Shown: positions 5,739 to 48,433 of the stretch, one piece after another
Layout of the letters: every line of letters begins with the position of its first letter
How positions within the stretch are numbered: the stretch's first letter is position 1
Origin: Sphingomonas brevis
GTDB lineage: Bacteria > Pseudomonadota > Alphaproteobacteria > Sphingomonadales > Sphingomonadaceae
DNA: 64,000 bases
Reading direction: 5' to 3'
Assembly (NCBI RefSeq): GCF_023516505.1
Contig: NZ_JAMGBB010000001.1
Span: 558,001-622,000, forward strand
Translations under genes and position numbers: made by a program
Notes under the pieces: generated by a model
Told to the model about the DNA's origin: nothing
Database searches by the model: none
Seen by the model: the letters and a program-made list of their open reading frames with translations, nothing else

Positions 5739-5857
5739 GGTCTTGATCGTTTCAGGCTCAGCCTGAAACGTGAATCTAGACCGCACTAAGGTCTGGAGCC
5801 TGATTCACGGTGAAAATGGAAGCGGCGGCACTTCCATTTTTAACGATCAGGCTCTAG
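5739..5857. repeat. Two-hairpin intergenic repeat (TCA-bulge palindrome family), copy 1
   Basis: Two consecutive imperfect hairpins lie between holC and ndk. The first pairs GTTTCAGGCT with AGCCTGAAAC, flanked by CTTGATC on the left and GTGAATCTAG on the right. The second pairs GAGCCTGATTCACGG...ATGGAAG with CTTCCAT...CGATCAGGCTC. In each hairpin one arm carries an extra TCA between GAT and CG. Related hairpins occur at 11689-11814 and 48391-48433. Confidence 0.75.
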
Positions 5858-5900
5858 GGCGCGGCCAATTCCAACCCCTGACAATCCTGGAGCCTTCACG

Positions 5901-6323
5901 ATGGCGGTTACCCGCACCTTTTCGATCATCAAGCCCGACGCTACCCGTCGCAACCTGACCGGCGCGGTCACCAAGCTGCTCGAGGAAGCGGGCCTGCGTG
6001 TGGTCGCTTCGAAGCGGATCCACATGACCCGCGACCAGGCCGGGGGCTTCTACGCGGTCCACAAGGAGCGGCCATTCTACAACGACCTCTGCACGTTCAT
6101 GACCTCGGGCCCGGTGGTGGTCCAGGTTCTCGAGGGCGAGGATGCGGTCAAGCGCAACCGTGACGTGATGGGCGCAACCAATCCGGCTGACGCGGCCGAA
6201 GGCACCATACGCAAGCTCTATGCCGAATCGATCGAGGCCAATTCGGTCCATGGGTCGGACAGCGACGAGAATGCGGCGATCGAGATTGCCTTCTTCTTCC
6301 AGCCCAACGAAATCGTCGGCTAA
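5901..6323 (+). CDS. ndk: Nucleoside diphosphate kinase
   Basis: This 140-residue protein matches the compact bacterial NDK family throughout ([18 protein letters not shown] at the N-terminus). The phosphate-accepting histidine is His117 in [11 protein letters not shown] balances nucleoside triphosphate pools by transferring the terminal phosphate between nucleotides via that histidine. The gene stands alone between the two-hairpin repeat upstream and a convergent small gene downstream. Confidence 0.96.
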
Positions 6324-6341
6324 GCTGTCCGGGGGACAGCT
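6323..6341. terminator. Hairpin at the end of ndk, possible bidirectional terminator
   Basis: AGCTGTCC, a GGG loop and GGACAGCT form a perfect 8-bp stem that begins at the ndk stop codon, in the gap before a convergent gene. There is no T-tract, so intrinsic termination is uncertain. Confidence 0.4.
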
Positions 6342-6360
6342 GAAGTCCGGCGATTGGCGG

Positions 6361-6861
6361 CTAACGGCTGAGACCGGCCAGCCGGAGCGAGCGGCCGCCC
6401 AACAGGCCGCCGCCGTCCCAATTGTAGCTGATCACGTAGGAGCCGGTGGCGGACTTGTCCGCGCCGGCTTCGACATATTTGGCGTCGATCCGTACGCGGA
6501 CGCGATGCATGCCATCGCCTTCCTCGGCTGATTTGCCGAGCGCATCTTCCAATGCCTTGGCGCCCAGCTCGCCGTCGCCGCCAAGCTCGATCTTGGACGC
6601 ACCAACCGCAATCGCCAACGACTGGAGCGCATGGCTGCCCTCGACCGGTGTGATTTCGAGTACGCGGCCCTCGTCAGCCACATGACCGCCGAGCCTCAGC
6701 GGGATCGACGCCTGCTTTTCAACCACCAGCGGCTTCTCATCGGGCTTGGTATATTCGCGCCACAGCCCAAGGCCGGAGACAACGAGGGCGGCAATGGCAA
6801 TCGCCTCGCCCAATGTCACCCAGCGCAGCCGTGATTTTTTCTTGACTTCAGCTTCACTCAT
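6361..6861 (-). CDS. Hypothetical membrane-anchored protein
   Basis: I do not recognise this 166-residue protein. It has a short basic N-terminus (residues 1-14) and one transmembrane helix (about 16-34, LGEAIAIAALVVSGLGLW), which suggests an inner-membrane anchor. A soluble, probably periplasmic beta-rich domain of about 125 residues follows, ending in GGRSLRLAGLSR. There are no catalytic motifs. It is convergent to ndk and upstream of the c-di-GMP protein on the same strand, with about 85 nt between them. The function is unknown. Confidence 0.7.
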   Translation of the reverse strand: MSEAEVKKKSRLRWVTLGEAIAIAALVVSGLGLWREYTKPDEKPLVVEKQASIPLRLGGHVADEGRVLEITPVEGSHALQSLAIAVGASKIELGGDGELGAKALEDALGKSAEEGDGMHRVRVRIDAKYVEAGADKSATGSYVISYNWDGGGLLGGRSLRLAGLSR

Positions 6862-6945
6862 CGTCGTGCAAACCCGGTTTGGGGAGTTTGTCGACTGCTT
6901 AGCGGCCCTTGCCTCAGCTTTGTAGCCGCCGTGAACTTAATCGCC

Positions 6946-9033
6946 TCAGCCAGTTTCCGATGCATCGCCAGACGTGAGGTAATCGGGCTTCATGACAGTT
7001 GATCCAGTGGGCGCCGGTTTGGCGGGTTGGAGCAGCCTGAGGTCGAACTTCTCCCTGAACTGGACCCCGAATTGCGTGCCCTTCACCCAGCGAATCTCCG
7101 CGTCGATCAATCCGCCGGCGGCGAAATCGAGCTGGATTTCCGCCCCAACCGTCATTTCTTCGCGGCATTCGACCAGCGCCCCGCCCGACGAGATATTCCT
7201 GAGGCGGGCGCCTTTTACCTGCCCCAGGTGATGGAGCAGTGTTGCCCTGATAATCCGGATACGCGGTTCGCGCGGCGGCAACTGTGCAGGCAGGGTTGCC
7301 GCGCCTTTCTTGGCCAGCTCCAGGGCTTCCTCGGCAGGCATGGGCTTGCCGAAGATGTAGCCCTGGACCAGTGGGCAGCCGAGGTCGCGCACCAGCTGCA
7401 GTTCCTCTGGCGTTTCGACCCCTTCGGCAATGGTCCGCATCTTGAGGTCGGATGCCAGGCCCACCATCGCCCGGATGAGCGCGGCGTTGCGGCTTTCCGG
7501 GTCGGATGCGCCGTTGACGAAGGACCGATCGATCTTGATCTTGTCGAACGGAACGCGCTGCAGGTAGCTGAGGCTTGAATAGCCGGTACCGAAGTCGTCG
7601 AGCGCCAGCTTGATCCCAATATCCTTGAGGGCTCGGATCATGTCGTGGACGTGATCGTCATTGCTGAGGAACACACCCTCGGTAATCTCAAGTTCCAGCC
7701 GTTTGGCGGGAAGGCCAGTGTCGCCAAGCACCATGCGCACGGTCGAGGTAAGCGCCGGCGATTTGAACTGGATCGGCGACAGGTTTACCGCGACCGAGAT
7801 ATGCGGCGGCCAGTTCGCCGCTTCTGCGCAGGCAGTCCGAAGCACCCATTCGCCGATCTCGTCGATCAACCGAATCTCTTCGGCCAGGGGAATGAATACT
7901 GCCGGGCTGACCGGGCCATGCTCTGGATGGTCCCAGCGGATCAGTGCTTCGAAGCCGGTTACCTCCTCGCTCGAAGCATCGACCTGGGGCTGGTAGACGA
8001 CCCTGAGCTGACCCTTTTCGAGAGCGACCCGCAGGTCGGACTCCATCAGCTGACGCTCGCGCGCTGCTTCGTGCATTTCCGGCGCGAAGAAGCGGAAGCA
8101 TCCCTTGCCGGCTGCCTTTGCCGCGTACAGCGCAAGATCGGCGTCGCGCATCAGATCGTCGGAAGTCCGATCGTCATAGTCCGAAGTGACGATCCCGACC
8201 GAAGCGCCGATCGAAACCAGCGTGCCGTTGATCGTGTAGGGGCGCGACAGGCTGTCGATAATGCCCTGGGCGACCTTCGACAGCTCATCGTTCGACGACA
8301 TGGCTGGCAGCACCACCTGGAATTCGTCGCCGCCAAGACGGCCGACTTGCCCGGCCTTGCCGACTTCGTCAGTCAGTCGCAGGGCGACCAACCGCAAGAG
8401 CGTGTCTCCGGCCGGGTGACCAAGCGTATCGTTGACTGCCTTGAAGCGATCCAGGTCGAGCAGGAACACCGAGCAGCGGTGCTTTCTCCGCACTGCTCCA
8501 ACCAGCGCGTCGTCCAACGCGCGCCGGAGGGCTTCGCGGTTGGCAAGGCCGGTCAGCGAATCCTGCCGGGCCAGGCGGTCGAGTTCGACCTCCGACTGGC
8601 GCATTTTCGTAAGGTCGGAAGCATAGCCCCTGAACCCGAAGAAACGGCCAGCCTCATCGTGGACCGGCCGGCCCGAGATCGACCACCAAATCTCGTTCTT
8701 TGTCTTGGCCCGGACGATCAGGTCCTGGAAAGCCACGTGCGACGACAGGTAGAAGCCGAGCGTCCGCTCCGACGTTCCGGCGCCGTCAGCGGTCTCCGAG
8801 AAGGTGAGGTCGGAGAAGGGCCGATTCAGCAGGTCTTCCGGTTCCCGCCCCAGGGCGCGGGCGACATTGTCGCTAATGTAGGAAAGCGTTCCGTCACGCC
8901 CGGTTTCCCAGAACCAGCCTTTTTCGCTGTTCTCAAACTCCTGGATGAGGCCTTCGGCGCGCGACGATTGGGGACGCGAATCGTCCTGGGCCGAACTGGC
9001 CCCCGGTCTCAAAAATTTTCCGATCGTTCCCAC
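6946..9033 (-). CDS. PAS-GGDEF-EAL-PilZ cyclic-di-GMP signalling protein
   Basis: This protein of about 695 residues has four domains. A PAS sensor lies near 30-140 (WFWETGRDGTLSYISDN), a diguanylate cyclase domain has an intact GGDEF at about 234, and a phosphodiesterase domain has EALIRW at about 361 plus DDFGTGYSSLSYL. The C-terminal PilZ-like domain (about 600-690) has NISSGGALVEC. Both catalytic motifs are intact, so it could make and degrade c-di-GMP; the net direction cannot be told. No transmembrane segment is visible, so it is probably cytoplasmic. I chose GTG 9033 because GAGG lies 5 nt upstream; the frame is open to another GTG at 9063 with no ribosome-binding site. Confidence 0.92.
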   Translation of the reverse strand: MGTIGKFLRPGASSAQDDSRPQSSRAEGLIQEFENSEKGWFWETGRDGTLSYISDNVARALGREPEDLLNRPFSDLTFSETADGAGTSERTLGFYLSSHVAFQDLIVRAKTKNEIWWSISGRPVHDEAGRFFGFRGYASDLTKMRQSEVELDRLARQDSLTGLANREALRRALDDALVGAVRRKHRCSVFLLDLDRFKAVNDTLGHPAGDTLLRLVALRLTDEVGKAGQVGRLGGDEFQVVLPAMSSNDELSKVAQGIIDSLSRPYTINGTLVSIGASVGIVTSDYDDRTSDDLMRDADLALYAAKAAGKGCFRFFAPEMHEAARERQLMESDLRVALEKGQLRVVYQPQVDASSEEVTGFEALIRWDHPEHGPVSPAVFIPLAEEIRLIDEIGEWVLRTACAEAANWPPHISVAVNLSPIQFKSPALTSTVRMVLGDTGLPAKRLELEITEGVFLSNDDHVHDMIRALKDIGIKLALDDFGTGYSSLSYLQRVPFDKIKIDRSFVNGASDPESRNAALIRAMVGLASDLKMRTIAEGVETPEELQLVRDLGCPLVQGYIFGKPMPAEEALELAKKGAATLPAQLPPREPRIRIIRATLLHHLGQVKGARLRNISSGGALVECREEMTVGAEIQLDFAAGGLIDAEIRWVKGTQFGVQFREKFDLRLLQPAKPAPTGSTVMKPDYLTSGDASETG

Positions 9034-9122
9034 TCGTGCCTCAGTCCTCGGACGGCAATGCACTAATGTGGTTTAAATTCGGTTAGGTTTCGAAAGTTTA
9101 GTCGCAGCTGCGAGACTTGGGC

Positions 9123-9569
9123 TCAATTGCCGGCCGCGCCCGCCGTACGCTTGTAGCTCCACCGTTCGGGCTTGCTGCCATCCGCCAGCGAAACTTCCGC
9201 ATCGAGACCGGTGTCGGTCGCGACATAGCGAAGTCGTTGCGGATAATCGTGAGACGCGTTGATGAAGGTTACCGATTTGGCGTCCGCCTCGGTCGCCTTG
9301 AAGCCGACTGCCGGAGCGCCCTTTGGCGAGCCATAGAAGGTTATCGATCCGTCCGTGCCGCGCTCGATCCGCATCCATTCCCAATGGCCGACACTGTCGC
9401 CCGTGCCGGTCCGGCCGGAGCCGATCATCACGCCGCCGCGAGTGTCGGTCCAGCACTCTTCGGTCCATTGCCCGGCTTCCGTCCGCTGTTCCCAGCAGCC
9501 GGATAGAAAGGCCGGCATGGCGACCGGTGCGGCGACGGCGGCTTCGGCCAGCATCATCAAGGCGATCAT
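9123..9569 (-). CDS. DUF6265-family protein, probably exported
   Basis: This 148-residue protein starts with a hydrophobic, Ala-rich segment that looks like a short signal peptide (MIALMMLAEAAVAAP). The body contains FLSGCWEQR near residue 21, a beta-strand pattern with HWEWMRIER and SHDYPQRLRY, and resembles the small lipocalin-like DUF6265 family, whose function is not established. It is transcribed away from purN, with 56 nt between the start of this gene and the purN stop. The family assignment rests on the GCWE and HDYPQR signatures. Confidence 0.75.
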   Translation of the reverse strand: MIALMMLAEAAVAAPVAMPAFLSGCWEQRTEAGQWTEECWTDTRGGVMIGSGRTGTGDSVGHWEWMRIERGTDGSITFYGSPKGAPAVGFKATEADAKSVTFINASHDYPQRLRYVATDTGLDAEVSLADGSKPERWSYKRTAGAAGN

Positions 9570-9625
9570 CGGCTCGCTCCCCCTTTTGCGGCGGAGAAGC
9601 TACTCGCCGGCAGAATCGACGTCGA

Positions 9626-10588
9626 TCAAAATTCGTTCGCGACGCGCAGCAGCTTGGTGAGGCGCGGCGGGGCCATGGCGGCCCAGCTGCGCTGCAGCCA
9701 GCCGGCGACATGATCCCAGTCGACTCGTGGACGGTCCAGCTTGATCCCGATCCAGTCGGACGGGCCGTAATAGGCGGGACGGAAATATAGCTCGGGCTCG
9801 GCCTCGATCAGCTGGGCCATCTCGTCCTGGCCGCTGCACTTGACCAGCACGCCGACATTTTCCTCGCCATGGTGTCGGTTCCACATGATTCCGAAGAATT
9901 TGCTGCTGCTCTTGCTGCCGACCTTCCAGCCGGGCGAGCCATGGCTCGTCTGGAAACCGGTTTCGGGCAAAGCCAGCGCAAGCTCGCCGACCTTGTTGGT
10001 GATCCAGTCGAAATCGCGCGTTCGGTTGAGATAGCGAATGACGGTATCCGGATAGAGCTGGTGCTCGGCAATCAGCACCCGCTCGGCGAGCGAATCCGGC
10101 GTGTCGTTCGAAAGAACGGCAACCTCGACCTGGCCAAGGATCTCGCCACCGTCGACGTCCGGGCTGACCAGATGAACGGTCGCGCCACTGAATTTATCTC
10201 CGGCGGCAAGGCAGGCCTCATGGCTTTTCAGGCCTTTGTGCCTGGGCAGAAGCGAGGGGTGGATGTTGACCATACGGCCATCCCATTTTGCGACGAATTC
10301 CTCGGGAATGATCCGCATGAAGCCGGCGAGGGCGACCAGGTCGATGCTCGCAGCCTCCAGCAGCTGTTGCAGTCGGGTCCAATAGGAGGCGCCAAGCTCC
10401 CTGGCATTCAATGCCTCGGTCGCCACGCCCTCGGCACGCGCAATTTCAAAGCCGTCTGCATCAGGCTTGTCGCCGGTCACCATCGCGACCTCGTAGGGGC
10501 AATCCTCGGCGCGCGAGGCATAGATAAGCGCGGCCATGTTTGAGCCGCGGCCCGATATCAGTACGGCGACACGCGACCGCTCAGCCAT
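9626..10588 (-). CDS. purN: Phosphoribosylglycinamide formyltransferase fused to an MmcQ/YjbR-type domain
   Basis: Residues 1-190 are a complete GART enzyme with the folate/GAR-binding LISGRGSNM near residue 8, [10 protein letters not shown] near 108 and SPDVDGG in the active-site loop. It transfers a formyl group to GAR in purine synthesis. From about residue 200 to 320 an MmcQ/YjbR-like (DUF419) domain follows ([31 protein letters not shown]). The frame is continuous and without a stop. Free-standing PurN is about 190-220 residues, so the 320-residue length reflects a real fusion. The ATG at 10588 overlaps the purM stop by 8 nt, so purM and purN are translationally coupled. Confidence 0.9.
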
Positions 10589-11678
10589 GATGGCTGGCCG
10601 ACCAGTCAGCCAGCGCGCTCCAGGTCCCGGCGCCGCCATGGACCGTGCAGCCCGTATCGCCGGGCTCGATCCGGCCGATGCAATGGACGATCTCGCCCGC
10701 TGCTTCCAGCCTTTGGGTTACTTCCGCCGCATCGTCCGGCGCAACGATCGCAACCATTCCGATCCCGCAATTGAATGTCCGCGCCAGCTCGTCCGGTTCG
10801 ATCGCTCCGCCGGCCTGGAGGAAGGCGAACAGGAGGGGAAGGGGCCAACTGTCGGCATCGACCATCGCGTGGGCGCCTTCGGGCAACACGCGCGGGATAT
10901 TCTCCAGCAAACCGCCACCGGTGATGTGCGCAAGGGCGCCGATCTTCCCCTCGCGCACCAGCGGCAGCAGGCTCTTCACATAGATTCGCGTCGGCTCGAG
11001 CAGGATTTCGCCCAGCAGCCGATCCTGCTCGAACAGGGCAGGGCGGTCGAGCTTCCAGTCGTTGACCTCGATCAGCCGGCGGACAAGCGAGAAGCCGTTA
11101 CTGTGCACGCCTGAACTGGCGAGACCCAGGATGACATCGCCTTGGGCGATCCGAGTGCCGGTCAGCGCCTTGGAGCGGTCGACCGCCCCGACGCAGAAGC
11201 CGGCAAGGTCATAATCGCCTTCCGAATACATTCCCGGCATCTCTGCCGTCTCGCCGCCGATCAGCGCGCAACCGGCCTGACGGCAGCCCGCGGCGATCGA
11301 TGCGACCACCGCGGCGGCCACCTCATTGTCGAGCTTGCCGGTAGCATAATAGTCGAGGAAGAAGAGAGGCTCGGCACCCTGGACGATCAGGTCATTGACG
11401 CACATCGCCACCAGGTCGATGCCGACGCCGTCATGCTTGCCGGTATCGATCGCGAGCTTGAGCTTGGTGCCGACACCGTCATTGGCCGCGACCAGCAGCG
11501 GATCTTCATAGCCCGCGGCTTTAAGGTCGAAAAAGCCTCCGAATCCACCCAGCTCGGCGTTGGCGCCTGGGCGGGCGGTGGCTTTGGCCAGCGGTGCAAT
11601 TGCCTTCACCAGCGCATTGCCGGCAGCGATCGACACGCCGGCATCGGCATAGGTCAGCGGCTTGGAGTTCGACGACAT
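10581..11678 (-). CDS. purM: Phosphoribosylformylglycinamidine cyclo-ligase (AIR synthetase)
   Basis: This 365-residue protein has the PurM pattern: [15 protein letters not shown] at the N-terminus, [10 protein letters not shown] near 45, [11 protein letters not shown] near 65, [11 protein letters not shown] near 140 and [16 protein letters not shown] near 252. It closes the imidazole ring of AIR using ATP in de novo purine synthesis. It is the first gene of the purM-purN pair. The two-hairpin repeat lies directly upstream, between this gene and the divergent DUF2066 gene. Confidence 0.96.
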
Positions 11679-11688
11679 GGCGGTGCGA

Positions 11689-11814
11689 CTAGAGCCTGAT
11701 TGTATGAAATGGAAGCGAGGGCCGCTTCCATTTCATACGTGAATCGTGCTCTCGGACATGGTCGTGACCTTGATTCACGCTTCAGGCTGAAAAGCCTGAA
11801 ACGATCAAGGTCGG
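11689..11814. repeat. Two-hairpin intergenic repeat (TCA-bulge palindrome family), copy 2
   Basis: The purM / DUF2066 divergent intergenic region is almost filled by two hairpins. One pairs AGAGC...GTATGAAATGGAAG with CTTCCATTTCATACGTGAATCGTGCTCT-like sequence. The other pairs GACCTTGATTCACGCTTCAG with CTGAAACGATCAAGGTC. The second is nearly identical to the hairpin at 48391-48433. One arm of each keeps the extra TCA. Confidence 0.75.
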
Positions 11815-11862
11815 GCCATATCGCGCTTGGAATTCCACGCCATTGTCGCCAAAAGCGCGCAG

Positions 11863-13074
11863 ATGCTTCTTCGTCGGCCTGCTGTCCTCATTGCCGCCAC
11901 ACTGCTTGCCCTTGCCGGAATGGGCGGGGTCTTGGTCGCGCAAATGGAGAGCGGCGAGCGGGGAATTCTGCCGATCGACAGCTCCGGAACGCTGGAAATC
12001 ACCGGGATCAAGGTCGACGTTGGCGGCAAGGACGCGGATTCGGCCCGCTATTCCGGCTGGCGCATCGCCCAGAGAGAGGGCTTCAAGGCGCTTTGGGCCA
12101 AGATGAACAAGCGCCCGGCCGGTGAAGCTCCGAATCTTTCGGATTCGACGCTTGATAATCTGGTCAGCTCGATCGTTGTCGAGAATGAACAGATTGGCCC
12201 CAACCGTTACATCGCGACGTTAGGCTTGCTGTTCGATCGGCAGCGCGCCGGCGAATTGCTCGGCCTCGCCGGCGAAGTGCGCCGCTCGGCGCCGATGCTG
12301 CTGATCCCCGTGCTGATCTCGGGCGGTACGGCAACCAGCGTTGAGTTGCGTAACCCTTGGCAACGCGCCTGGGCCCAGTTCCGTACTTCTCAAAGCGCGA
12401 TCGATTATGTGCGGGTCAGCGGGCTTGGCGTCGACCCCCTGCTGGTCAACGCGGCCCAGACCCGGCGGCCGGGCCGCGGTTGGTGGCGCAACATCCTCGA
12501 CCTTTATGGCGCGGCCAATATCCTGGTGGCCGAGGTTAGGCTCGACCGGCTTTATCCCGGCGGGCCAAGCAAGGCGCTATTCGTCGGCCGGTTCGGACCC
12601 GACGGGCGAACGCTGGGCAGTTTCGAGCTGACTGCGCGGAACAGCGACGATCTGCCGCGGATGATGAACGAAGGTGTCCAGCGCATGGACGATCTCTTCA
12701 CCCAGGCGCTGGCCGCGGGTATCGTTCGCGGCGATCCCGACCTTATTATCCAGCCACCTCCACCGCCCAAGGAAGAGGAGGAGGCGCCGGTAGCGGCAGA
12801 GATCGCACCGACCGTTATCCAGGTTCTGGTGATCGAGCGCGGTGAAGCAGCCGCTGTCGCACAATCGGTGGCACAAATCCGCGGACTTGCCGGTGTCATT
12901 TGGGTAACCCAGGCGCCATTGCCCAACGGCAACGCGAATCTGTCGGTCAATTATCGCGGCGACATCAACGCCTTGGGGTCGGCGCTTTACTCGCGCGGCT
13001 GGTCGGTCACCAACCGTGGCGGCGTCCTCTATGTGACCAGGGGAGCCGCGCCGGGGGTAAGCCCAACCCAATGA
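11863..13074 (+). CDS. DUF2066-type exported protein between purM and hdaA
   Basis: This 403-residue protein has a signal-peptide or anchor helix (PAVLIAATLLALAGMGG, about residues 6-22), then a mixed alpha/beta body with repeated VAEVRLDRL and GPDGRTLGSFELTARN segments, a proline/glutamate linker (about 298-312) and a C-terminal module of about 85 residues. Its position between purM and hda matches the DUF2066 family seen at that locus in other Proteobacteria; the family has no established function. The ATG at 11863 puts the hydrophobic segment at the N-terminus; the frame is open upstream to a TTG. The stop overlaps the hdaA start (ATGA). Confidence 0.7.
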   Translation: MLLRRPAVLIAATLLALAGMGGVLVAQMESGERGILPIDSSGTLEITGIKVDVGGKDADSARYSGWRIAQREGFKALWAKMNKRPAGEAPNLSDSTLDNLVSSIVVENEQIGPNRYIATLGLLFDRQRAGELLGLAGEVRRSAPMLLIPVLISGGTATSVELRNPWQRAWAQFRTSQSAIDYVRVSGLGVDPLLVNAAQTRRPGRGWWRNILDLYGAANILVAEVRLDRLYPGGPSKALFVGRFGPDGRTLGSFELTARNSDDLPRMMNEGVQRMDDLFTQALAAGIVRGDPDLIIQPPPPPKEEEEAPVAAEIAPTVIQVLVIERGEAAAVAQSVAQIRGLAGVIWVTQAPLPNGNANLSVNYRGDINALGSALYSRGWSVTNRGGVLYVTRGAAPGVSPTQ

Positions 13075-15823: not shown

Positions 15824-15843
15824 TCGGCTCTCCCGTCGGCCTA

Positions 15844-17594: not shown

Positions 17595-17626
17595 CGGTCC
17601 CTCCGGTTTGTCTGGCTAATCAAGCG

Positions 17627-18820: not shown

Positions 18821-18900
18821 CTGTCGCGCGCCATAGCGACATGCTCGCGCCTTGACAAAGTCCTGTTTGGATATGAAGCGCCACCTCGAAATCCCAACAG

Positions 18901-18986: not shown

Positions 18987-19005
18987 AAATGAAGAAGAGC
19001 AATTC

Positions 19006-32530: not shown

Positions 32531-32537
32531 CTATCCG

Positions 32538-33824: not shown

Positions 33825-33856
33825 CGGACGGCGCTGCTGGCCTATTGCGACGTGCC

Positions 33857-35952: not shown

Positions 35953-35958
35953 TCGGCA

Positions 35959-37275: not shown

Positions 37276-37371
37276 GACGCAGCGCTCCTCAGATGGCGGC
37301 GTCACCCAAGCCGCTGACCCGTGCGGCGTCAAGGCTTGCCAACGCAGCAGTCGGCGGGCCATCGGCACCGA

Positions 37372-40196: not shown

Positions 40197-40319
40197 GCGA
40201 CTCTCCCTTCCTCCGAGTTGACGGGGGCGCGAGTCGCATGTCGAGCGGCCAGCGCTCTCCAAACGCACAGCGTCGGACTCTTTGGTCAGGAAGGCAAGAG
40301 GGTGCAACGAAGCGCAGCC

Positions 40320-40403
40320 GTCATTGCGAGGAGCAGACGCGACGAAGCAATCCAGAACGTCGCTGGATTGCTTCCCCCGGACTGGATCCGGGGTCGCAAT
40401 GAC
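40320..40403. repeat. GTCATTGCGAG/CTCGCAATGAC palindromic repeat, copy 2
   Basis: GTCATTGCGAGGAG at the left and GGGTCGCAATGAC at the right enclose GAAGCAATCCAG and CTGGATTGCTTC. It lies between rpoH (downstream side) and the EF-G-like gene. It is the longest copy because of an extra CCCCCGGACTGGATCCGGGG hairpin on the right. Confidence 0.85.
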
Positions 40404-40409
40404 GACTTG

Positions 40410-41321: not shown

Positions 41322-41342
41322 CGTTTCGTTCACTCCCTCAGC

Positions 41343-41359
41343 AAGGGGGCACGCCCCTT
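41343..41359 (-). promoter_or_regulatory. GC-rich hairpin in the rpoH leader
   Basis: On the minus strand AAGGGG and CCCCTT pair around a GCGTGC-type loop, ending about 4 nt before the GAGGGAG ribosome-binding site of rpoH. There is no T-tract. It could influence translation of rpoH or act as an mRNA end for rluD; neither is shown. Confidence 0.3.
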
Positions 41360-41372
41360 AGCTGTATTATCC

Positions 41373-42326
41373 TTATACACCAAGTCTGTTGAACAGTTCC
41401 TGCATGTCCGACGGAAGGGCACTGTCAAACGACAAACGACCCTTTGTGACGGGGTGGACGAAGCCCAGGTGAGCGGCGTGCAGTGCCTGGCGCTTGAAGT
41501 CCAATTGATTAAGCAACTTTCTGTGACCGGTTTTTCCGCGACCATAGACGGGATCTCCGACCAGCGGATGGCCGATCGAGGCCATATGCACCCGCACCTG
41601 GTGGGTCCGTCCGGTTTCCAGCCGGCATTCGACCAATGCAGCATCGTCGAGAAGTTTTAGCCGTTTCCAGTGGGTTATAGCCCGTTTTCCACGACCTTCC
41701 TGAACAATTGCTATCTTCTTCCTGTTCTGCGGCGACCGCGCCAGCGGCGCATCGACCGTTCCCTCGGCTTGACGCGGAATACCTGACACAATGGCCAGGT
41801 AGCGGCGGTCGATCGAATGGGCCGCGAACTGCTTGGCCAGCCCTTCATGGGCCTTGTCATGCTTGGCGACGACCAGCAGGCCCGAGGTGTCCTTGTCGAT
41901 GCGATGCACGATGCCTGGCCGGGCGACTCCGCCGATTCCGCTCAGGGATCCGCCGCAATGATGTAGCAGGGCGTTGACCAGTGTCCCGTCACGATTCCCC
42001 GCCGCCGGATGGACTACCAGCCCGGCCGGCTTGTCGACCACCAGCAAATGCTCGTCCTCGAAGACGATCGGAAGCGCGATTTCCTGCGGCTCGTTGTGGG
42101 CCGGTTCAGGGGCTGGCACCGCCAAGGTGTAGCGCTCATCGCCTTTCACCTTGGTCGCGGGGTCGCGCACCGCCTTGCCGTCGCGGGTCAGCGCGCCGGC
42201 CTTGGTCAGCACCTTCAATCGCTCACGCGAGAGGCTTGGAACCTGTGCGGCCAATGCCCTGTCGAGCCGCCAGCCGGCATGGCTGGCGTCGAGCGCTATT
42301 GCGATGCTGATATCCCCCCCGGACAT
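41373..42326 (-). CDS. rluD: 23S rRNA pseudouridine synthase RluD
   Basis: This 317-residue protein has an N-terminal S4-like domain (RLDRALAAQVPSLSRERLKVL) and a RluA-family catalytic core with HRIDKDTSGLLVVAK (catalytic Asp) near residue 141 and LETGRTHQVRVHMASIGHPL near 234. RluD makes pseudouridines in helix 69 of 23S rRNA. The position upstream of rpoH in the same orientation is seen elsewhere in sphingomonads. RluD and RluC/RluA cannot be fully told apart without phylogeny; the length and S4 domain favour RluD. Confidence 0.93.
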   Translation of the reverse strand: MSGGDISIAIALDASHAGWRLDRALAAQVPSLSRERLKVLTKAGALTRDGKAVRDPATKVKGDERYTLAVPAPEPAHNEPQEIALPIVFEDEHLLVVDKPAGLVVHPAAGNRDGTLVNALLHHCGGSLSGIGGVARPGIVHRIDKDTSGLLVVAKHDKAHEGLAKQFAAHSIDRRYLAIVSGIPRQAEGTVDAPLARSPQNRKKIAIVQEGRGKRAITHWKRLKLLDDAALVECRLETGRTHQVRVHMASIGHPLVGDPVYGRGKTGHRKLLNQLDFKRQALHAAHLGFVHPVTKGRLSFDSALPSDMQELFNRLGV

Positions 42327-42414
42327 GTAGCCAGGAAATGGTGATTTGACCGTCGAGTTTCAATGGGGCCGGGGGACACTTGCTTCAGGTTAAACTCTCG
42401 CGCATCAGCGTCCC

Positions 42415-43053
42415 ATGAACGCGATCGAACTTGCCAGCCTGTTGTGTTCCCGCCTGTGCCATGACCTGATGTCGCCGGTCGGTGCGCTGAACAACGGGAT
42501 CGAGCTGCTCGCCGACGAGCAAGACCCGGAAATGCGCGAAAAGTGCCTCGAATTGTTGGCGGAAAGCGCCCGTGCAAGCGCCAACAAGCTCAAATTCTTT
42601 CGCCTGGCATTCGGGGCGGGTGGCGGATTCGGCGACGAAATCGACACGCGGGAGGCCAGGACGGCGCTGGAGGGATTGTACGGCTCCGAGGGAAAGACGG
42701 AGCTCGGCTGGATGGTGGCCGACGACAAGCTGCCCAAGGGAGCGATCAAGCTGCTGTTGAACCTGGCGATGATCGCTGGGGACGCGCTGGTTCGTGGCGG
42801 CCGGCTGGATGTTGGCGCGGAACGCCGCGACGGAAAGCTGGAAATGGTGATCCGCGCAGAAGGCCAGCGGATCTTGCTCGACCCCAAGCTGCGAGAGACC
42901 ATCGCGACCGGCCAATCGGGCGGAGAAGTCGAACCGCGCGCGGCGGGCGCATGGCTGGCGCACAGCTTGGCGGCGGAAGCCGGCGGCACGATCCAGCTCA
43001 GCGATCCGGCCGACCAGGTGCTGTTGATCGGCGTCACCCTGCCCAACATCTGA
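42415..43053 (+). CDS. chpT: Histidine phosphotransferase ChpT
   Basis: This 212-residue protein has a phospho-acceptor His16 in SRLCHDLMSPVGALNNGIEL (a two-helix DHp-like segment) and a C-terminal degenerate ATPase-like domain without the G boxes. This is the ChpT architecture. ChpT carries phosphate from CckA to CtrA and CpdR in the alphaproteobacterial cell-cycle relay. It lies immediately upstream of cheA and 12 kb from cckA. A fragment of a palindromic repeat lies between chpT and cheA. Confidence 0.92.
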   Translation: MNAIELASLLCSRLCHDLMSPVGALNNGIELLADEQDPEMREKCLELLAESARASANKLKFFRLAFGAGGGFGDEIDTREARTALEGLYGSEGKTELGWMVADDKLPKGAIKLLLNLAMIAGDALVRGGRLDVGAERRDGKLEMVIRAEGQRILLDPKLRETIATGQSGGEVEPRAAGAWLAHSLAAEAGGTIQLSDPADQVLLIGVTLPNI

Positions 43054-43067
43054 TGGTTCAGGCCCTT

Positions 43068-43094
43068 CGATAAACTCAGGACAGGGCTAACGGG
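43068..43094. repeat. Half copy of a CCCTTCGA-ACTCAGG intergenic repeat
   Basis: CCCTTCGATAAACTCAGG followed by ACAGGGCTAACGGGG looks like one arm of a common sphingomonad repeat (consensus CCCTTCGACAAGCTCAGG). It lies in the chpT-cheA intergenic region; the other arm is absent or degenerate. Confidence 0.4.
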
Positions 43095-43156
43095 GCGTTA
43101 ACTCCTTGGCGGCATAGAGGACTCAAGCAACTATTTTGCGTGGGGCCCCGCCGCCG

Positions 43157-45505
43157 ATGGATGACCTAATTGCCGATTTCGTGGCCGAGTGCCGGGAAAT
43201 GCTTGAAGCGCTGGGCGGCGAAATCGTCGCCTGGGAAGCCAATCCCGACGATCGCACCCGCCTCGATAGCATTTTCCGCTTCGTCCATACCGTGAAGGGC
43301 AACTGCGGCTTCTTCGATTTTCCGCGCCTGGAGGCACTGAGCCATGCCGCCGAGGACGCGCTCGCCGACTGCCGCGCCGGGCGCCGGACTCCGGATTCCG
43401 CACTGGTCAGCGCCGTGCTGGCGGTGATCGACCGCATTGGTGAGATGATTGCCTCGATCGATGCCGGCGAAGGTGTGCCGGCTGGCGACGACACCCAGTT
43501 GATCGAAGCCTTGGCTCCCGGTGCAGAAGGCCCTGCGGTGCAGGCCAGCGCAACGGTGATGACGGATGCGACGGGCAAGGCCGGGGCCGCGCCCCGCACG
43601 ATCCGCCTTTCCGTTGAGTTGCTCGACCGGGTGATGTCAGGCGTCAGTGACATGGTGCTGGCCCGCAACGAGCTAGCTCGCCGCCTGCGTGAGGCACCGA
43701 CCGAAGTTGCGGTCGACGGCGCCTTCGAACGGCTGTCGGGCATCATTGCCGAGATGCGCGATGCGATCACCCGCACGCGCATGCAGCGAATCGAAAATCT
43801 GTTCGTCGCGCTGCCGCGGATGGTCCGCGACCTTTCGGCGGAGCTCGGCAAGCAAGTGCTTGTCGATATCGACGGCGGCGACGTCGAGCTGGATCGCGAG
43901 ATGATCGAAATGATCCGCGATCCGCTGACCCACATTATCCGCAATGCCGTCGACCACGGCATCGAGGCGCCGGCTGACCGGATCAAAGCCGGCAAGCGCG
44001 AAATCGGTTTACTGTCCGTGTCGGCGCGCCAGTCCGGCAATCAGATCCTGATCGAAATTGCGGACGACGGCAAAGGCATCGACGGCGCGAAGCTGGTCGA
44101 GAAGGCCGTTGCCAACGGCGTGATCGAGCGCGAAGCGGCCCAGAAAATGTCTCGCGGCGAGCAGTTGGCGCTGATCTTCGAGGCCGGACTGTCGACCGCT
44201 CAGTCGGTGACCGCCATTTCCGGGCGAGGCGTCGGCATGGACGTGGTTCGATCCAACGTCGAGCGGATCGGCGGGCTGGTCGAAGTGGATTCCACTCCCG
44301 GTAAGGGCACGCGGATGATCCTCCGAGTGCCGCTGACCCTGACCATCATCCCGGCGCTTACGGTGTCGATCGGGTCGCAGCATTTTGCAATTCCGCGTTC
44401 GGCTATCGAGGAAATTGTCCGTGCCAACGGCAGCAGCGTGACGCTGGAGCAGATTGGCGGCGCGGGGGTCGCAACGATCCGCGGTCGCCGCGTCCCCGAG
44501 GTCGCGCTGGCCAATGTACTTGGCCTGCCCAACACGATGGCCGACGAGGACCGCACCCTGGTCGTGCTCCGTCCGGCCGGCGGCGATGTCTACGCGCTGG
44601 CCGTCGACAAGATCCACGACCATGAGGAACTGGTGGTGAAGCCGGCCGCTCCGGCGGTGATGGCGACCGGACTCTATGCCGGTACCACTCTGGCCGACGA
44701 CGGAAGCCCGATTCTGTTGTTCGATCCTGCCGGCATTGCGCAGGTCGGCGGAGTCAAGCTCGAGGCGATTGAGCGGGCCGGCCGAGGTGTCGATGCGCCG
44801 GTCGCAATCAATTCCAGTGAAGTACCAGTGCTGCTGTTCCGCGGCCTCGATGGCGCACGCCGCGCGCTGAGGCTGGGCGTGGTCGACCGGATCGAGGAGG
44901 TCGAGCCGGATGCGATCCGCACTACCGCCGGGCAATTGCGGGTCCAGCTCGGCGAAGCAATCCTGCCATTGGCCGGTGTTGCCAATGCGGAGGAAATCAA
45001 CGGCAAGATCCGCGTTTTCCGTCTGAATGACGGTAGCCATGAGCTTGGCTACGCCTTCCGCGAGGTAATCGACCTGATGGCGATCGACCGGGACGTGATT
45101 CCCGCCGACGTGCCGGGAGCGGTCAGCGGCGTCACCCTGATCGATGGCGAACCTGCCGAATTGATCGACGCCCACTGGCTATTTGCCGAGCATCTCGGCG
45201 CTGCGGTTCGGCCGCACGCGCAGCTGGTCTGCCGGCTACCGGAAAACGACGCCTGGATGCAGAATATGTTGCGCCCGATCGTCGAGGCCGCTGGCTATCT
45301 GGTGATCGGCGAGCAGGATGAACTGGCAGCCGACGTAACCATCGTCTCGCAAGGCAAGGACGTCGAACCCGGCCAGGGCGGACGGATCTTGCGCCTGGCG
45401 GCCGATCCGGACGCCGCCAACGGCGAGGACAGTATCTATCGCTACGATCGGGCCGGCCTGCTGATGGCGCTCAAGGCATCGAGCGCGAGCGCAGGGAGGC
45501 GTTGA
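43157..45505 (+). CDS. cheA: Chemotaxis sensor kinase CheA with extended C-terminus
   Basis: This protein of about 782 residues has an N-terminal HPt domain with His44 in FRFVHTVKGNCGFF. A short linker leads directly into the dimerisation domain (RLSVELLDRVMSGVSDMVLARNEL), so I see no P2 domain. An HATPase domain follows (HIIRNAVDHGIE; GRGVGMDVV) and a CheW-like regulatory domain (about 405-530). A further region of about 240 residues looks like a second CheW-like module plus a receiver-like tail. CheA autophosphorylates and passes phosphate to CheY and CheB. It heads a cheA-W-Y-B-R operon. ATG 43157 is chosen over TTG 43136. Confidence 0.9.
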   Translation: MDDLIADFVAECREMLEALGGEIVAWEANPDDRTRLDSIFRFVHTVKGNCGFFDFPRLEALSHAAEDALADCRAGRRTPDSALVSAVLAVIDRIGEMIASIDAGEGVPAGDDTQLIEALAPGAEGPAVQASATVMTDATGKAGAAPRTIRLSVELLDRVMSGVSDMVLARNELARRLREAPTEVAVDGAFERLSGIIAEMRDAITRTRMQRIENLFVALPRMVRDLSAELGKQVLVDIDGGDVELDREMIEMIRDPLTHIIRNAVDHGIEAPADRIKAGKREIGLLSVSARQSGNQILIEIADDGKGIDGAKLVEKAVANGVIEREAAQKMSRGEQLALIFEAGLSTAQSVTAISGRGVGMDVVRSNVERIGGLVEVDSTPGKGTRMILRVPLTLTIIPALTVSIGSQHFAIPRSAIEEIVRANGSSVTLEQIGGAGVATIRGRRVPEVALANVLGLPNTMADEDRTLVVLRPAGGDVYALAVDKIHDHEELVVKPAAPAVMATGLYAGTTLADDGSPILLFDPAGIAQVGGVKLEAIERAGRGVDAPVAINSSEVPVLLFRGLDGARRALRLGVVDRIEEVEPDAIRTTAGQLRVQLGEAILPLAGVANAEEINGKIRVFRLNDGSHELGYAFREVIDLMAIDRDVIPADVPGAVSGVTLIDGEPAELIDAHWLFAEHLGAAVRPHAQLVCRLPENDAWMQNMLRPIVEAAGYLVIGEQDELAADVTIVSQGKDVEPGQGGRILRLAADPDAANGEDSIYRYDRAGLLMALKASSASAGRR

Positions 45506-45951
45506 TGAACGAGTTGCTGCTAATCGTGTCGATTGCCGGTAGCCGCGTTGCACTGCCCGCGGTGGCAGTGGAGAGCGTGGTCGAGCTGGAGGCGCTGATC
45601 CCGGTGCCTCGCGCGCCGGATCATCTCGCCGGCCTGTCGGCGCTTCGTAGCCGCGTCTTGACCGTGATTGATTGCCAGCGTTCGCTCCAGCTCGGCACGA
45701 CCGACCTTAACAATGGCGACCTTCATGAGGCCGCGGTGGTTGAGCTCGACGGCCATCACTATGCCCTGACGGTCGATGCGGTGGAGGATGTCGTCGAGGC
45801 CCTGTCCGAAGCGGCCCCGATCCGCGCCGCCATGGGAGAAGGTTGGGAGCGAGTATCCAAGGGGATGGTCGAAACCGAAGAGGGCCCGCTTCTGCTCGTC
45901 GACATTGCCGCCATCATCGCCGGCCCAGTCTCGGAGGCCCGCGCGGCTTAA
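45505..45951 (+). CDS. cheW: Chemotaxis coupling protein CheW
   Basis: This protein of about 148 residues fits one CheW domain (NELLLIVSIAGSRVALPA, then HLAGLSALRSRVLTVIDCQRSL). It couples receptors to CheA. The cheA stop and this ATG overlap (TGATG), and GGGAGG precedes it, so translation is coupled. In the second half, HHYALTVDAVEDVVEAL matches the CheW strand-helix pattern. Confidence 0.9.
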   Translation: MNELLLIVSIAGSRVALPAVAVESVVELEALIPVPRAPDHLAGLSALRSRVLTVIDCQRSLQLGTTDLNNGDLHEAAVVELDGHHYALTVDAVEDVVEALSEAAPIRAAMGEGWERVSKGMVETEEGPLLLVDIAAIIAGPVSEARAA

Positions 45952-46008
45952 GAGGTTCGTTACCCTTATCGCTTAGTAACTGCGCTAACATTTGACGGAA
46001 TTGATATT

Positions 46009-46374
46009 ATGAAAACCTGCCTCATCGTCGACGACAGCAAGGTCATCCGCAAGGTTGCGCGGCATATCCTGGAAACGCTTGAGTTCCAGGTTGACGAAGC
46101 CGGTGATGGGCGCGAGGCGCTGGACCGCTGCGAAGCAAAAATGCCCGACGTCGTGCTGCTCGATTGGAACATGCCGGTAATGAGCGGAATGGAGTTTTTG
46201 AAGCTCCTTCGGCAGCGCGGACATGCGGACCAGCCGAAGGTCGTGTTTTGCACGACGGAAAACGACATGGCTCATATCCGCGCGGCACTTGAAGCGGGCG
46301 CGGACGAATATGTGATGAAGCCGTTCGACCGCGAAACGCTGCACATCAAGCTGCAACTCGTCGGCGTAGCCTGA
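46009..46374 (+). CDS. cheY: Chemotaxis response regulator CheY
   Basis: This 121-residue receiver domain has the acidic pair IVDDSKVIRKV, phospho-acceptor Asp52 in VLLDWNMPVMSG, the conserved Thr in VVFCTTENDM and the conserved Lys in YVMKPFDRETL. There is no output domain. It lies within the che operon, before cheB. The family binds the flagellar switch when phosphorylated; no flagellar genes are in the window. Confidence 0.92.
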   Translation: MKTCLIVDDSKVIRKVARHILETLEFQVDEAGDGREALDRCEAKMPDVVLLDWNMPVMSGMEFLKLLRQRGHADQPKVVFCTTENDMAHIRAALEAGADEYVMKPFDRETLHIKLQLVGVA

Positions 46375-46381
46375 GAATCCG

Positions 46382-47491
46382 ATGAGCGGGGCGCTCGCCA
46401 CTTCCCGGGCCAGCGATCGGGCTGGGGCCGGCCGGCAACTGCGCCGGCCGATCCGGGTGATGATCGTCGACGATTCGATGGTCGCCCGCGCGGTGCTCAG
46501 CCGGATGATCGACGCCGACGGCAATTTCGAAATCGCGGCGATTGCCGGCACTGGCGAGGACGCCGTTGAAGCGCTCGGCCAGGTAATGGTCGATACCATC
46601 CTGCTCGACCTGGAAATGCCTGGTGCTGGCGGGCTGAAGTCGATTCCGCATATCCTTGAGGCGGCCAAGGGCGCCAAGGTGCTGATCGTCTCGTCCCTTG
46701 CCGAGGAAGGCGCCGAGGAAACGGTCGCGGCCCTGGCGCTGGGTGCCGCCGACACGCTGCCAAAGCCTGGCACCGGCCGGTTCAATGGGCGCTTCTCGGA
46801 AGTACTGCTCGGGAAGCTTCGAGAGCTTGGCTATGCCGACCGCAGTTCGATCCCGGCGAGGCCGGTTACCATCCCGCATCGGCCAATGCCGGTTCAAAGC
46901 GATACGCCGCTTCGATTGCTGGCGATCGGAGCGTCGACCGGCGGCATTCATGCGCTTGCTACCTTTTTCGATGCGCTGCCCAAGCGGATCGGTGTGCCGA
47001 TCCTGGTAACCCAACATTTGCCGCCGGCTTTCATGACCGTGTTCGCCCGCCAATTGTCGGCCGTGGCCGGGCGGGAAGCGGTGGTCGCCGAAGACGGAAC
47101 GAAGCTGCTTCCCGACCGGATCGTGGTTGCGCCAGGCGAAGCTCATTTGCTGGTGGACGAAGTCAACGGTCGGTTGGTCGCGCGACTGCTCAAGACCAAG
47201 GTCGCCAGCGGCTGCTTGCCGTCGGTCGACCCGATGCTGGCCTCGGCCGGCGCGATCCTCGGTCCGGCCGCCCTCGGCGTCGTGCTTACCGGAATGGGCC
47301 GTGATGGGGCTGAGGGTGCCAGGCGGCTGGTCGAAGCCGGCGGTGCCGTCATGGCGCAGGATGAAGCCAGCTCGGCAATCTGGGGTATGCCGCGCGCCGT
47401 TGCCGAGGCCGGCCTGGCCTGTGCCGTGCTTCCGCCCGAAAAGCTGGCGCGGCGAGTTGGCGTGCGGAGCGAGGAGGCCTCGTGCAAGTAA
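46382..47491 (+). CDS. cheB: Chemotaxis protein-glutamate methylesterase CheB
   Basis: This 369-residue protein has an N-terminal receiver (MIVDDSMVARAVLSRMI; Asp in TILLDLEMP) and a C-terminal methylesterase with the Ser in IGASTGG near residue 181, His in VTQHLPPAFM and Asp in TGMGRDGAEGA. It removes methyl groups from receptor glutamates during adaptation. An extra 20-odd residues precede the receiver. Its end overlaps the cheR GTG start by 10 nt. Confidence 0.94.
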   Translation: MSGALATSRASDRAGAGRQLRRPIRVMIVDDSMVARAVLSRMIDADGNFEIAAIAGTGEDAVEALGQVMVDTILLDLEMPGAGGLKSIPHILEAAKGAKVLIVSSLAEEGAEETVAALALGAADTLPKPGTGRFNGRFSEVLLGKLRELGYADRSSIPARPVTIPHRPMPVQSDTPLRLLAIGASTGGIHALATFFDALPKRIGVPILVTQHLPPAFMTVFARQLSAVAGREAVVAEDGTKLLPDRIVVAPGEAHLLVDEVNGRLVARLLKTKVASGCLPSVDPMLASAGAILGPAALGVVLTGMGRDGAEGARRLVEAGGAVMAQDEASSAIWGMPRAVAEAGLACAVLPPEKLARRVGVRSEEASCK

Positions 47492-48330
47492 GCGATAGTT
47501 CGAGCCGAATCCTCGCCGGCCTGCTCGAGGCCCGTACCGGACAGCAATTGACGATGAGCCGCCGCTGGCGGATCGAAACAGCGCTTGCCGCGCTGCTTCG
47601 CGAACGCGGCATTCCGACGCTGGACGAGCTGATCACGATCCTGGTGATGGGCCGGGAACCAAGCCTGGCCACTCAGGTCGTCGAAGCGCTGCTCAACAAC
47701 GAAACCTACTTCTTCCGCGATCGCTCTCCGTTCGATCTGCTGACCAAGTCTACGCTGCCCAAGCTGGCCCAGCGCCGCCAACAGACCAAGCGGCTGTCGA
47801 TCTGGTCGGCCGGCTGTTCGACAGGGCAGGAAGCATATTCGCTGGCGATGCTGTTTGCGGAAGATCCGGTGAAATGGGCTGGCTGGACGATCGACATCCT
47901 CGGCAGCGACGTCAGCGAATGCGTCGTCCGCCGTGCCCGCGAAGGGACCTACAGCCAGTTCGAGGTGCAGCGAGGCCTTGGCATTACCCAGATGATCCGC
48001 TGGTTCGAGGAAACCGGCAATGGCTGGCGCGCGGTCGAGCCGCTACGCCGGATGGTTCGCTTCCAGGTGCATAATTTGCTCGAACCGCCACCGCATCCCG
48101 GCAAGTTCGACATCGTCCTGTGCCGCAACGTCCTGCTCTACCTGAACGGCGACCGCCGGGCCCAGGTGTTCGACCGCATCGCCGATGCGATCGCGCCCGA
48201 CGGCTCCCTGATGCTCGGCGCCGGGGAGACGGTCATCGGGCAGACCAGGCGCTTCTGGGCCGACCCGGATTCGCGCGGGCTCTATCGTATGGTCGACCAG
48301 GAGGAACCGCGGGGAATTGCGGTTGCCTGA
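47482..48330 (+). CDS. cheR: Chemotaxis protein methyltransferase CheR
   Basis: This 282-residue protein has an N-terminal all-helical CheR domain (NNETYFFRDRSPFDLL, near residue 73-88). A SAM-binding Rossmann core follows with SIWSAGCSTGQEAYSLAML and FDIVLCRNVLLYL. It methylates receptor glutamates. The GTG start lies inside the cheB end. It is the last gene of the che operon; a hairpin repeat (48391-48433) follows. Confidence 0.94.
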   Translation: MQVSDSSSRILAGLLEARTGQQLTMSRRWRIETALAALLRERGIPTLDELITILVMGREPSLATQVVEALLNNETYFFRDRSPFDLLTKSTLPKLAQRRQQTKRLSIWSAGCSTGQEAYSLAMLFAEDPVKWAGWTIDILGSDVSECVVRRAREGTYSQFEVQRGLGITQMIRWFEETGNGWRAVEPLRRMVRFQVHNLLEPPPHPGKFDIVLCRNVLLYLNGDRRAQVFDRIADAIAPDGSLMLGAGETVIGQTRRFWADPDSRGLYRMVDQEEPRGIAVA

Positions 48331-48390
48331 TCGCCTCGACCGGGCCGAAGTCGGTCGATCGAGGCGTGAATCAGTCAACAATTTAATCGA

Positions 48391-48433
48391 GACCTTGATT
48401 CACGTTTCAGCCGTAGCTGAAACGATCAAGGTC
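48391..48433. repeat. TCA-bulge hairpin repeat, copy 3 (single hairpin)
   Basis: GACCTTGATTCACGTTTCAG pairs with CTGAAACGATCAAGGTC around CCGTAG. The left arm has an extra TCA relative to the right. Further TGAATC sequence lies just upstream. It lies between cheR and the amidase gene. Confidence 0.8.

Follow-up and report, generated by a model that had tools for sequence, protein, structure and literature searches.

The 64-kb window analyzed here (the whole stretch of 64,000 nucleotides at positions 558,001 to 622,000 of contig NZ_JAMGBB010000001.1 of Sphingomonas brevis, assembly GCF_023516505.1; 63% G+C) contains three doublets of back-to-back imperfect hairpins, six hairpins in all, and every doublet combines one hairpin of a type that we term A with one of a type that we term B. 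Doublet 1 lies between an open reading frame (ORF) ending at 5710, whose best match is DNA polymerase III chi, under its cut-off, and ndk, which starts at 5901; doublet 2 occupies the gap ahead of purM (reverse strand, start at 11678); and in doublet 3, an arm of the B hairpin overlaps the stop codon of an ORF ending at 48330. The neighbors named by family search are ndk and purM, the matches of the other ORFs being under cut-off or absent. The features have the following coordinates in the window.

5734-5859: doublet 1, with flanks
5734..5787, minus strand: A-type hairpin of doublet 1 (match with 11-nt flanks; hairpin at about 5738-5783)
5769..5776, minus strand: inner arm of the doublet 1 A hairpin, GATTCACG with surplus TCA
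5791..5859, plus strand: B-type hairpin of doublet 1 (hairpin at about 5794-5857), inner stem ATGGAAG/CTTCCAT
5802..5809, plus strand: inner arm of the doublet 1 B hairpin, GATTCACG with surplus TCA
5854..5857, strand not applicable: CTAG at the outer end of doublet 1 (related genome G014: CTAG without the element)
11687-11817: doublet 2, with flanks
11687..11756, minus strand: B-type hairpin of doublet 2 (hairpin at about 11690-11752), partner arm CAATC
11689..11692, strand not applicable: CTAG at the outer end of doublet 2 (G014: a single CTAG, element absent)
11738..11745, minus strand: inner arm of the doublet 2 B hairpin, GATTCACG
11761..11817, plus strand: A-type hairpin of doublet 2 (hairpin at about 11766-11812)
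11772..11779, plus strand: inner arm of the doublet 2 A hairpin, GATTCACG
48318-48438: doublet 3, with flanks
48318..48383, minus strand: B-type hairpin of doublet 3 (hairpin at about 48327-48374), CTGATCGCCTCGACC...GGTCGATCGAGGCGTGAATCAG
48365..48372, minus strand: inner arm of the doublet 3 B hairpin, GATTCACG
48386..48438, plus strand: A-type hairpin of doublet 3 (hairpin at about 48389-48435)
48397..48404, plus strand: inner arm of the doublet 3 A hairpin, GATTCACG

The base of the A hairpin has the consensus GACCTTGAT-TCA-CG ... CG-ATCAAGGTC and a short stem, and that of the B hairpin, GAGCCTGAT-TCA-CG ... CG-ATCAGGCTC and a longer one; single copies deviate from both. One arm of each window hairpin has a surplus of three nucleotides, TCA, and this is the inner arm, both TCA arms of every doublet facing inward. 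A preliminary description of this DNA had counted five such hairpins, and imperfect hairpins with three extra bases in one arm do lie where it placed them, but the true count is six: beside the hairpin at 48389-48435, its partner at about 48327-48374 was overlooked, so that the third element is a doublet as well. Similarly, CGATC, which was said to stand opposite GATTCACG in every hairpin, does so in five of the six, the hairpin at 11690-11752 having CAATC instead, and ATGGAAG/CTTCCAT, taken for an attached second hairpin type, is actually the inner stem of the bulged B hairpin in two of the three doublets, its altered order arising because one doublet is inverted relative to the others. There are eight occurrences of GATTCACG in the window (mean of 3.6 and maximum of 7 in 100 shuffles), six of them within the elements.

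A covariance model was trained on 28 hairpins, and the arms were compared over 218 distinct hairpins, i.e., 273 matches minus overlapping, opposite-strand, and identical ones. The TCA arms are both on the inside in 48 of 53 adjacent hairpin pairs. GATCG is found in 84 of 96 outer arms and GATTCACG in 79 of 96 inner arms, and the repeat is preceded by TA in 50 outer arms versus 20 inner arms (background, 1.3%). The outer four-mers are CTAG in 29, TTAG in 12, and CCAG in 7 of the 96 cases, CTAG or TTAG thus accounting for 41.

The hairpin paired with B is, at many loci, of a different sequence family. Hairpins with the motif [CT]GA[AG]A[AT]CGG (mainly from Brevundimonas) have an inner-arm bulge with at least 2 surplus nucleotides in 21 of 21 cases, with a net surplus of +2 to +5 in 20 and of 0 in one (locus L183), whose fold keeps a 2-nt inner bulge; at one further locus (L199), the motif is present and the hairpin absent. 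Hairpins with the motif GCGCGAT[AG]GCC, all from one metagenome-assembled genome (MAG), have a 3-nt inner-arm surplus in 4 of 4 cases (net +2 or +3). These 25 hairpins represent two further families, not 25 independent cases; they were among 53 that a script listed as “other,” the remaining 28 of which proved by eye to be misfiled A or B hairpins and unrelated folds. The A/B class in the same script (n = 40) has a surplus of +3 in 25 hairpins, +2 in 6, +4 in 4, and other values in 5. Because two families without TCA also have the inner surplus, the shared property is an inner-arm surplus at about 9 to 10 nucleotides from the GA end and not the letters TCA.

Stems vary by paired substitutions, and the GAT-TCA-CG/CG-ATC core changes little. 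Both-sided changes affect 19 of 27 pairs in the 28-hairpin alignment (98 cells versus 27.7 in shuffles, with 0 of 500 as high) and 22 of 27 pairs among 149 matches from named loci (393 cells versus 135), whose rows were aligned to the model, which favors the model, and include a few opposite-strand copies. Even the core shows paired changes, such as CACC with GGATC (L177, L221, and L230) and CACA with TGATC (L213). Partner hairpins were sampled separately (n = 43; 40 after exclusion of three that match the exact selection pattern, counted by eye): 35 of the 40 have a 3-nt surplus in the same arm, and in 26, the arms read exactly GATTCACG/CGATC. The asymmetry does, as originally proposed, outlast changes of stem and loop, with dozens to more than 100 matches in some relatives. 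Four hairpins were seen to have lost it, three having TCA on neither arm (L174:4954-5008, L238:6403-6457, and L195:2319-2363) and one on both (L210:2983-3043).

The S. brevis genome (2.6 Mb) contains 11 hairpins at seven places (four doublets and three singles), including the six in the window, with E values of 4e-17 to 1.6e-7 on the better strand; of the 14 rows that the model returned, three repeat a place on its opposite strand. Ten of these hairpins were among the training sequences, the sole one outside the training set being that at 11687-11756 (E = 9.9e-10). Three of the seven places fall in this window, which is 2.5% of the genome. A search for the pattern GATTCACG-N12-40-CGATC, as the preliminary description had suggested, finds 13 instances in the genome, of which two or more have no hairpin, whereas the reversed control finds 1. 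Few genome copies were to have spoken against the idea of a recognized bulge; copies are indeed few in S. brevis itself, but not in some relatives.

At an E value of 0.01, the model finds matches in 15 of 120 genomes, S. brevis included, 14 of which belong to the same genus, with one weak match elsewhere (E = 0.004). The exact pattern TGATTCACG-N8-38-CGATCA has 43 matches in 100 genomes versus 1 for the reversed control; those in other families, and a few within the genus, show no hairpin by eye and are chance-like. A scan of one genome per species yields at least 118 loci, largely in Brevundimonas and Sphingomonas, with others listed in Sphingobium, Allosphingosinicella, Rhizorhabdus, Hankyongella, Caulobacteraceae, and some Acetobacteraceae and Rhodospirillales; the matches in Mesosutterella and Rhizobium have no hairpin. 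The 32 genomes behind these loci have 1 to 138 model matches each, both strands being counted and at most 150 candidates scored per genome, and copy-rich examples include an Allosphingosinicella MAG (138), Sphingomonas cavernae (124), and Hankyongella (124). Counts in genomes of Sphingomonadales and Caulobacterales other than S. brevis reach 138. In Sphingomonas colocasiae, four B hairpins stand in tandem with a 69-bp period (L217:7185-7454).

Empty sites are available from G014, whose ndk region is 88% identical to that of the window (the best of 46 genomes besides S. brevis). G014 is without all three doublets, the model being silent in the stretches that cover the sites (L119 and L120), and its empty sites read CCGG-CTAG-TGGCG at ndk and CCG-CTAG-CCATATC at purM; no CTAG was seen in G014 at the 48-kb site. 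Duplication of CTAG or YTAR as the target was considered and set aside: the four-mers on the two sides of a doublet are often unequal (TTAG on one and CTAG or CTAA on the other), and TA fits better by eye. Elements also occur at orthologous places, namely, tRNA-Ser (S. brevis, G008, and G106), purM (S. brevis and G046), and seven further sites (G014/G100/G027, G054/G100, three in G003/G046, G028/G046, and G028/G052). At the G014/G100/G027 site, the base stems of the A hairpin are GACTAAG/CTTGGTC, GACCATG/CATGGTC, and GACCTTG/CAAGGTC. Ten ortholog comparisons, which leave out two involving the A hairpin of L020, show 22 positions switched between Watson-Crick pairs, of which 11 remain after deduction of five that amount to a one-pair length shift (tRNA-Ser) and six that could stem from independent insertions (purM). 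The paired changes at orthologous sites therefore indicate that either selection or templated repair preserves pairing where the elements stand.

Among 122 elements from sources of at least 3 kb, 12 lie inside a predicted ORF of at least 110 amino acids and 10 lack a neighbor on one side. The flanking genes are in tandem in 52 cases, convergent in 27, and divergent in 21, versus 220, 95, and 111 for all gaps of more than 50 nt; these gene calls are crude ORFs, some of them over tRNA genes. An element lies within 6 nt of 45 of 112 neighboring stop codons versus 8 of 98 starts, and TAG makes up 26 of those 45 stops versus 151 of 585 in the same loci, both of which a CTAG target predicts. Six loci (L013, L030, L073, L170, L001, and L029) have a single hairpin at most about 10 nt from the 5' end of tRNA-Ser(GGA), tRNA-Leu(UAA), or tRNA-Arg(UCU), and in each of these loci the GATTCACG arm comes first. 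The tRNA-Ser hairpin is found in two genera, recurring in a Sphingobium MAG (L170), and hairpins in this position are possibly domesticated tRNA leaders. An Rfam scan of the window matched RNase P alone (the class A RNase P RNA gene at 50524-50903).

The arms were compared with the ends of IS630-family elements, for which 21 loci from carriers and alphaproteobacterial plasmids were used. Rows were excluded when their ends were not found (L296, L297, L303, and L305), when they have the ends of another group (L300), when they are copies of L293 (L298 and L302), and when they are fragments or weak matches (L299, L301, and L306). TA-flanked inverted ends with 15 to 16 of 20 matches are present in 13 of the 21 loci, a level that none of 200 random 2.2-kb stretches reaches (4 of 200 reach 13). 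All 13 end pairs stand in a YTA...TAR context, in which TA was required and Y and R were not, and 10 start with GAG at both ends. Over positions 4 to 18, the outer arms of A and B fit these ends better than shuffles do (uncorrected P values of 0.012 and 0.007 by mean and 0.047 and 0.039 by best match). The fit is weaker for the Brevundimonas outer arm (P values of 0.025 and 0.11), and the inner arms of A and B do not exceed shuffles (P values by mean of 0.17 and 0.09, and by best match of 0.43 and 0.67). We regard the fit of the outer arms, a likeness of sequence, as moderate evidence for a kinship with IS630; the best single match is 13 of 18 (GAGCGGGATTGTTTTAGT against GAGCCTGATCGTTTGAGG). 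At one Hankyongella locus (L304:860-1000 and 1960-2120), the TA that closes an A-like hairpin is also the exact starting point of an IS630 element. Members of the IS5 family were rejected as mobilizers: the matches of one Novosphingobium IS5 gene included IS903-like elements, and on a Komagataeibacter plasmid, three of four IS5-family genes gave end candidates, with at most 8 of 18 matches to the outer arms. ORFs between hairpins that lie 700 to 1,300 bp apart (L166, L239, L242, and L263) do not look transposase-like by eye, no family search having been made.

We propose, with a probability of about 0.5, that these elements are old IS630-type miniature inverted-repeat transposable elements (MITEs), of the kind of CIR, reportedly the CcrM-associated intergenic repeats of Caulobacter and other alphaproteobacteria that Chen and Shapiro described in 2003, and of RIME (Rhizobium-specific intergenic mosaic elements), which have a two-palindrome structure, and that a lasting offset of their inner arms leaves the outer ends as the only ones to serve as transposon ends. 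The element would be a small nonautonomous insertion (about 120 to 130 bp here) in which two long imperfect palindromes face each other across a short linker. Its outer arms would act as terminal inverted repeats, GA[GC]C[CT]TGATCGTTT..., resembling the ends of one alphaproteobacterial IS630 group, and an exact parent would have ends matching GAGCCTGATCGTTT or GACCTTGATCGTTT. Insertion would take place at the TA within CTAG-like sites, in many cases where a TAG stop codon lies. The inner arms are inverted copies of the neighboring outer arms plus an insert of 2 to 3 nt at about 9 nt from the end (TCA in A and B), and this insert may put the inner copy out of register for the transposase, confining cutting to the outer ends, and may also keep the palindrome imperfect. 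The arrangement and the shift are observed, whereas the purpose of the insert and mobilization by an IS630 transposase are inferred. Since no IS630 gene was found in the window's genome, the copies are probably immobile today.

We also entertain, tentatively and as the less probable case, a wider version in which the bulge marks polarity independently of its letters in alphaproteobacterial two-palindrome repeats at large (CIR, RIME, and the present families): an insert of 2 to 4 nt at about one helical turn from the end might blind the transposase to the inner copies, and the modules (A, B, Brevundimonas, and RIME-like) might be swappable, only the shift being of consequence. The RIME-like module is the partner palindrome of B hairpins in one MAG (L168, L188, L209, and L257), which we take to be of that kind by its appearance.

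Several observations weigh against the IS630 proposal. None of the IS630 elements among the loci examined has matching ends, 13 of 18 being the best, and two of another group (L300 in G003 and one on a Novosphingobium plasmid) have GTGGATTGA at their ends, which the outer arms do not resemble. A DDE_3 match was obtained in 6 of 12 carriers and is absent by the same search from the window's genome and from the copy-rich G127, G135, and G148. The Hankyongella hairpin beside IS630 (L304) has TCA on neither arm. IS5-family elements can likewise be located at CTA...TAA, as two of them are, although their ends do not match. No two-sided TA duplication was seen at the three window sites, the filled ndk and purM sites having a single intact copy, and no convincing element was found in plasmids and phages (best E value, 0.03) by blastn, which is weak for such variable repeats. 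The surplus was lost in 4 of the 40 partner hairpins and is unreadable in that register in one. Finally, persistence at orthologous places with paired changes is unexpected of a decaying transposon that lacks selection or templated repair.

Of the alternative explanations, one that would account for the paired changes is templated mutation: correction of quasi-palindromes, rather than selection, would produce both these changes and the identity of the arms, the bulge being an ancestral feature. The four hairpins with TCA on neither or both arms look as such correction would make them, but they are only 4 of 40, although a correction spanning the bulge would erase it every time, and the inner-arm surplus is present in three hairpin families of unlike sequence; we consider this account improbable. 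Strong paired substitution is likewise what would be expected if the hairpins acted in transcripts, as 3' ends, RNase III targets, or stabilizers, with the bulge as the recognition site of a protein or nuclease, a possibility to which the proximity of many elements to stop codons (45 of 112 stops have one within 6 nt) and the uniform orientation 5' of tRNA-Leu, tRNA-Ser, and tRNA-Arg also point. The lean of mispairs toward G-T over A-C (66 to 44), however, shrinks to 33 to 30 once position 7 is excluded; neither doublet order (8 to 6) nor the strand of single hairpins (18 to 13) is biased relative to transcription; no terminator-like site was found in the purM gap; and stop-codon closeness is predicted by the CTAG target too. 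The earlier suggestion that a protein or RNase recognizes the bulge gains, as regards recognition in RNA, little from these data, and an RNA element seems to us unlikely.

Selection could instead act on methylation of the DNA, the inner GATTC being kept as a GANTC site for CcrM whose methylation, or the loss of it following replication, influences the element or a neighboring gene, while the outer arm, which has no GANTC, stays unmethylated. The canonical inner arm does contain GATTC and the canonical outer arm, GATCG, does not. A RAMA-domain methylase, which we take to be of the CcrM type, is encoded by all 16 carrier genomes tested, including S. brevis, and by Caulobacter vibrioides alone among 14 controls, so that the inner-arm GATTC may be methylated. 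In other genera, a number of A-type loops contain GATTC or GAATC (by eye), as excerpts of the literature describe for CIR (PMC2229807). Conservation, however, extends over all of GATTCACG and its paired CGATC, with T nearly always the N of GANTC; two families have a surplus other than TCA in the same place; and 3 of 96 inner arms are variants such as GATTTACG that are not GANTC. A site of this type is a rather doubtful explanation of the bulge. With their inverted hairpins and conserved asymmetric bulge, the elements are similar to the doublets of repetitive extragenic palindromes (REPs) called REPINs, as well as to the end hairpins of IS200/IS605, and the preliminary description had named a REP-transposase-like enzyme as a candidate recognizer. 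On this reading, a RAYT (a Y1 transposase) would bind the bulged hairpin as single-stranded DNA and mobilize the repeat. Y1_Tnp (PF01797) is over its cut-off in none of 13 carriers of the genus, several of them incomplete assemblies, and was likewise not found in G120, G121, G127, G132, and G135, which are five of the seven genomes richest in copies (in descending order, 138, 124, 124, 64, and 57 matches); the remaining two genomes, with 91 and 57 matches, have one and two Y1 genes, and over the 32 named carriers, the domain is found in 10, including G126 and G148. Moreover, the outer feet are mostly CTAG or TTAG and not the GTAG or CGTC reported in excerpts for the two REP superfamilies (PMC3733652), and mobilization by a RAYT appears very improbable to us.

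Repeats of this general architecture are not new to alphaproteobacteria: according to the reference lists of later papers, two-palindrome intergenic repeats have been described since 1995 (RIME) and 2003 (CIR), and in the excerpts consulted, a 2007 review left their mobility unexplained (PMC2229807). CIR are outlined in such excerpts as intergenic repeats of about 110 bp that occur across alphaproteobacteria, with two long inverted repeats and a linker, TA termini, and GANTC sites (PMC2229807 and PMC10969869). By this published description, the present elements are CIR-like (PMC2229807). They have two inverted repeats and a linker (121 to 131 nt for the three window doublets and about 112 to 144 nt for 48 sample doublets, with flanks), TA at the termini of 50 of 96 outer arms, an intergenic location (12 of 122 inside predicted ORFs), and hosts with a CcrM-type methylase (16 of 16 genomes, by domain). 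Two differences emerge from the same excerpts: the GANTC of CIR is reported at the terminal loop, whereas the present elements have it in the inner arm by the bulge as well, and those of the window there alone, and the inner-arm insert, IS630-like outer ends, and C-TA-G target are absent from these CIR descriptions. RIME are, in the part of the source consulted, likewise intergenic repeats of alphaproteobacteria (PMC2573895) but differ in stem sequences. With REPs and REPINs, the elements share inverted doublets, imperfect stems, intergenic location, and high copy number in some genomes, but most carriers tested lack the Y1 transposase of RAYT-driven systems, and the ends read TA-GAGC in place of a GTAG or CGTC foot. 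A precedent for the proposed origin is RUP of pneumococcus, an IS630-derived MITE whose ends are described in an excerpt as highly similar to those of IS630-Spn1 (PMC2229807); RUP is similarly small and nonautonomous, with a TA target and IS630-like ends, but the best end match here is the 13 of 18 given above, no parent having been found.

What is new here is what the bulge is, i.e., an insert that shifts the inner arms, which are inverted copies of the outer arms; the passages of published work returned by our literature search neither describe this insert nor connect these repeats with IS630. The findings caution that not every hairpin doublet is a REPIN driven by a RAYT, and the inner-arm rule offers a way to annotate two-palindrome repeats. 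The origin of these repeats becomes testable through a structural rule shared by hairpin families of unlike sequence, a candidate transposase family, and a target site.

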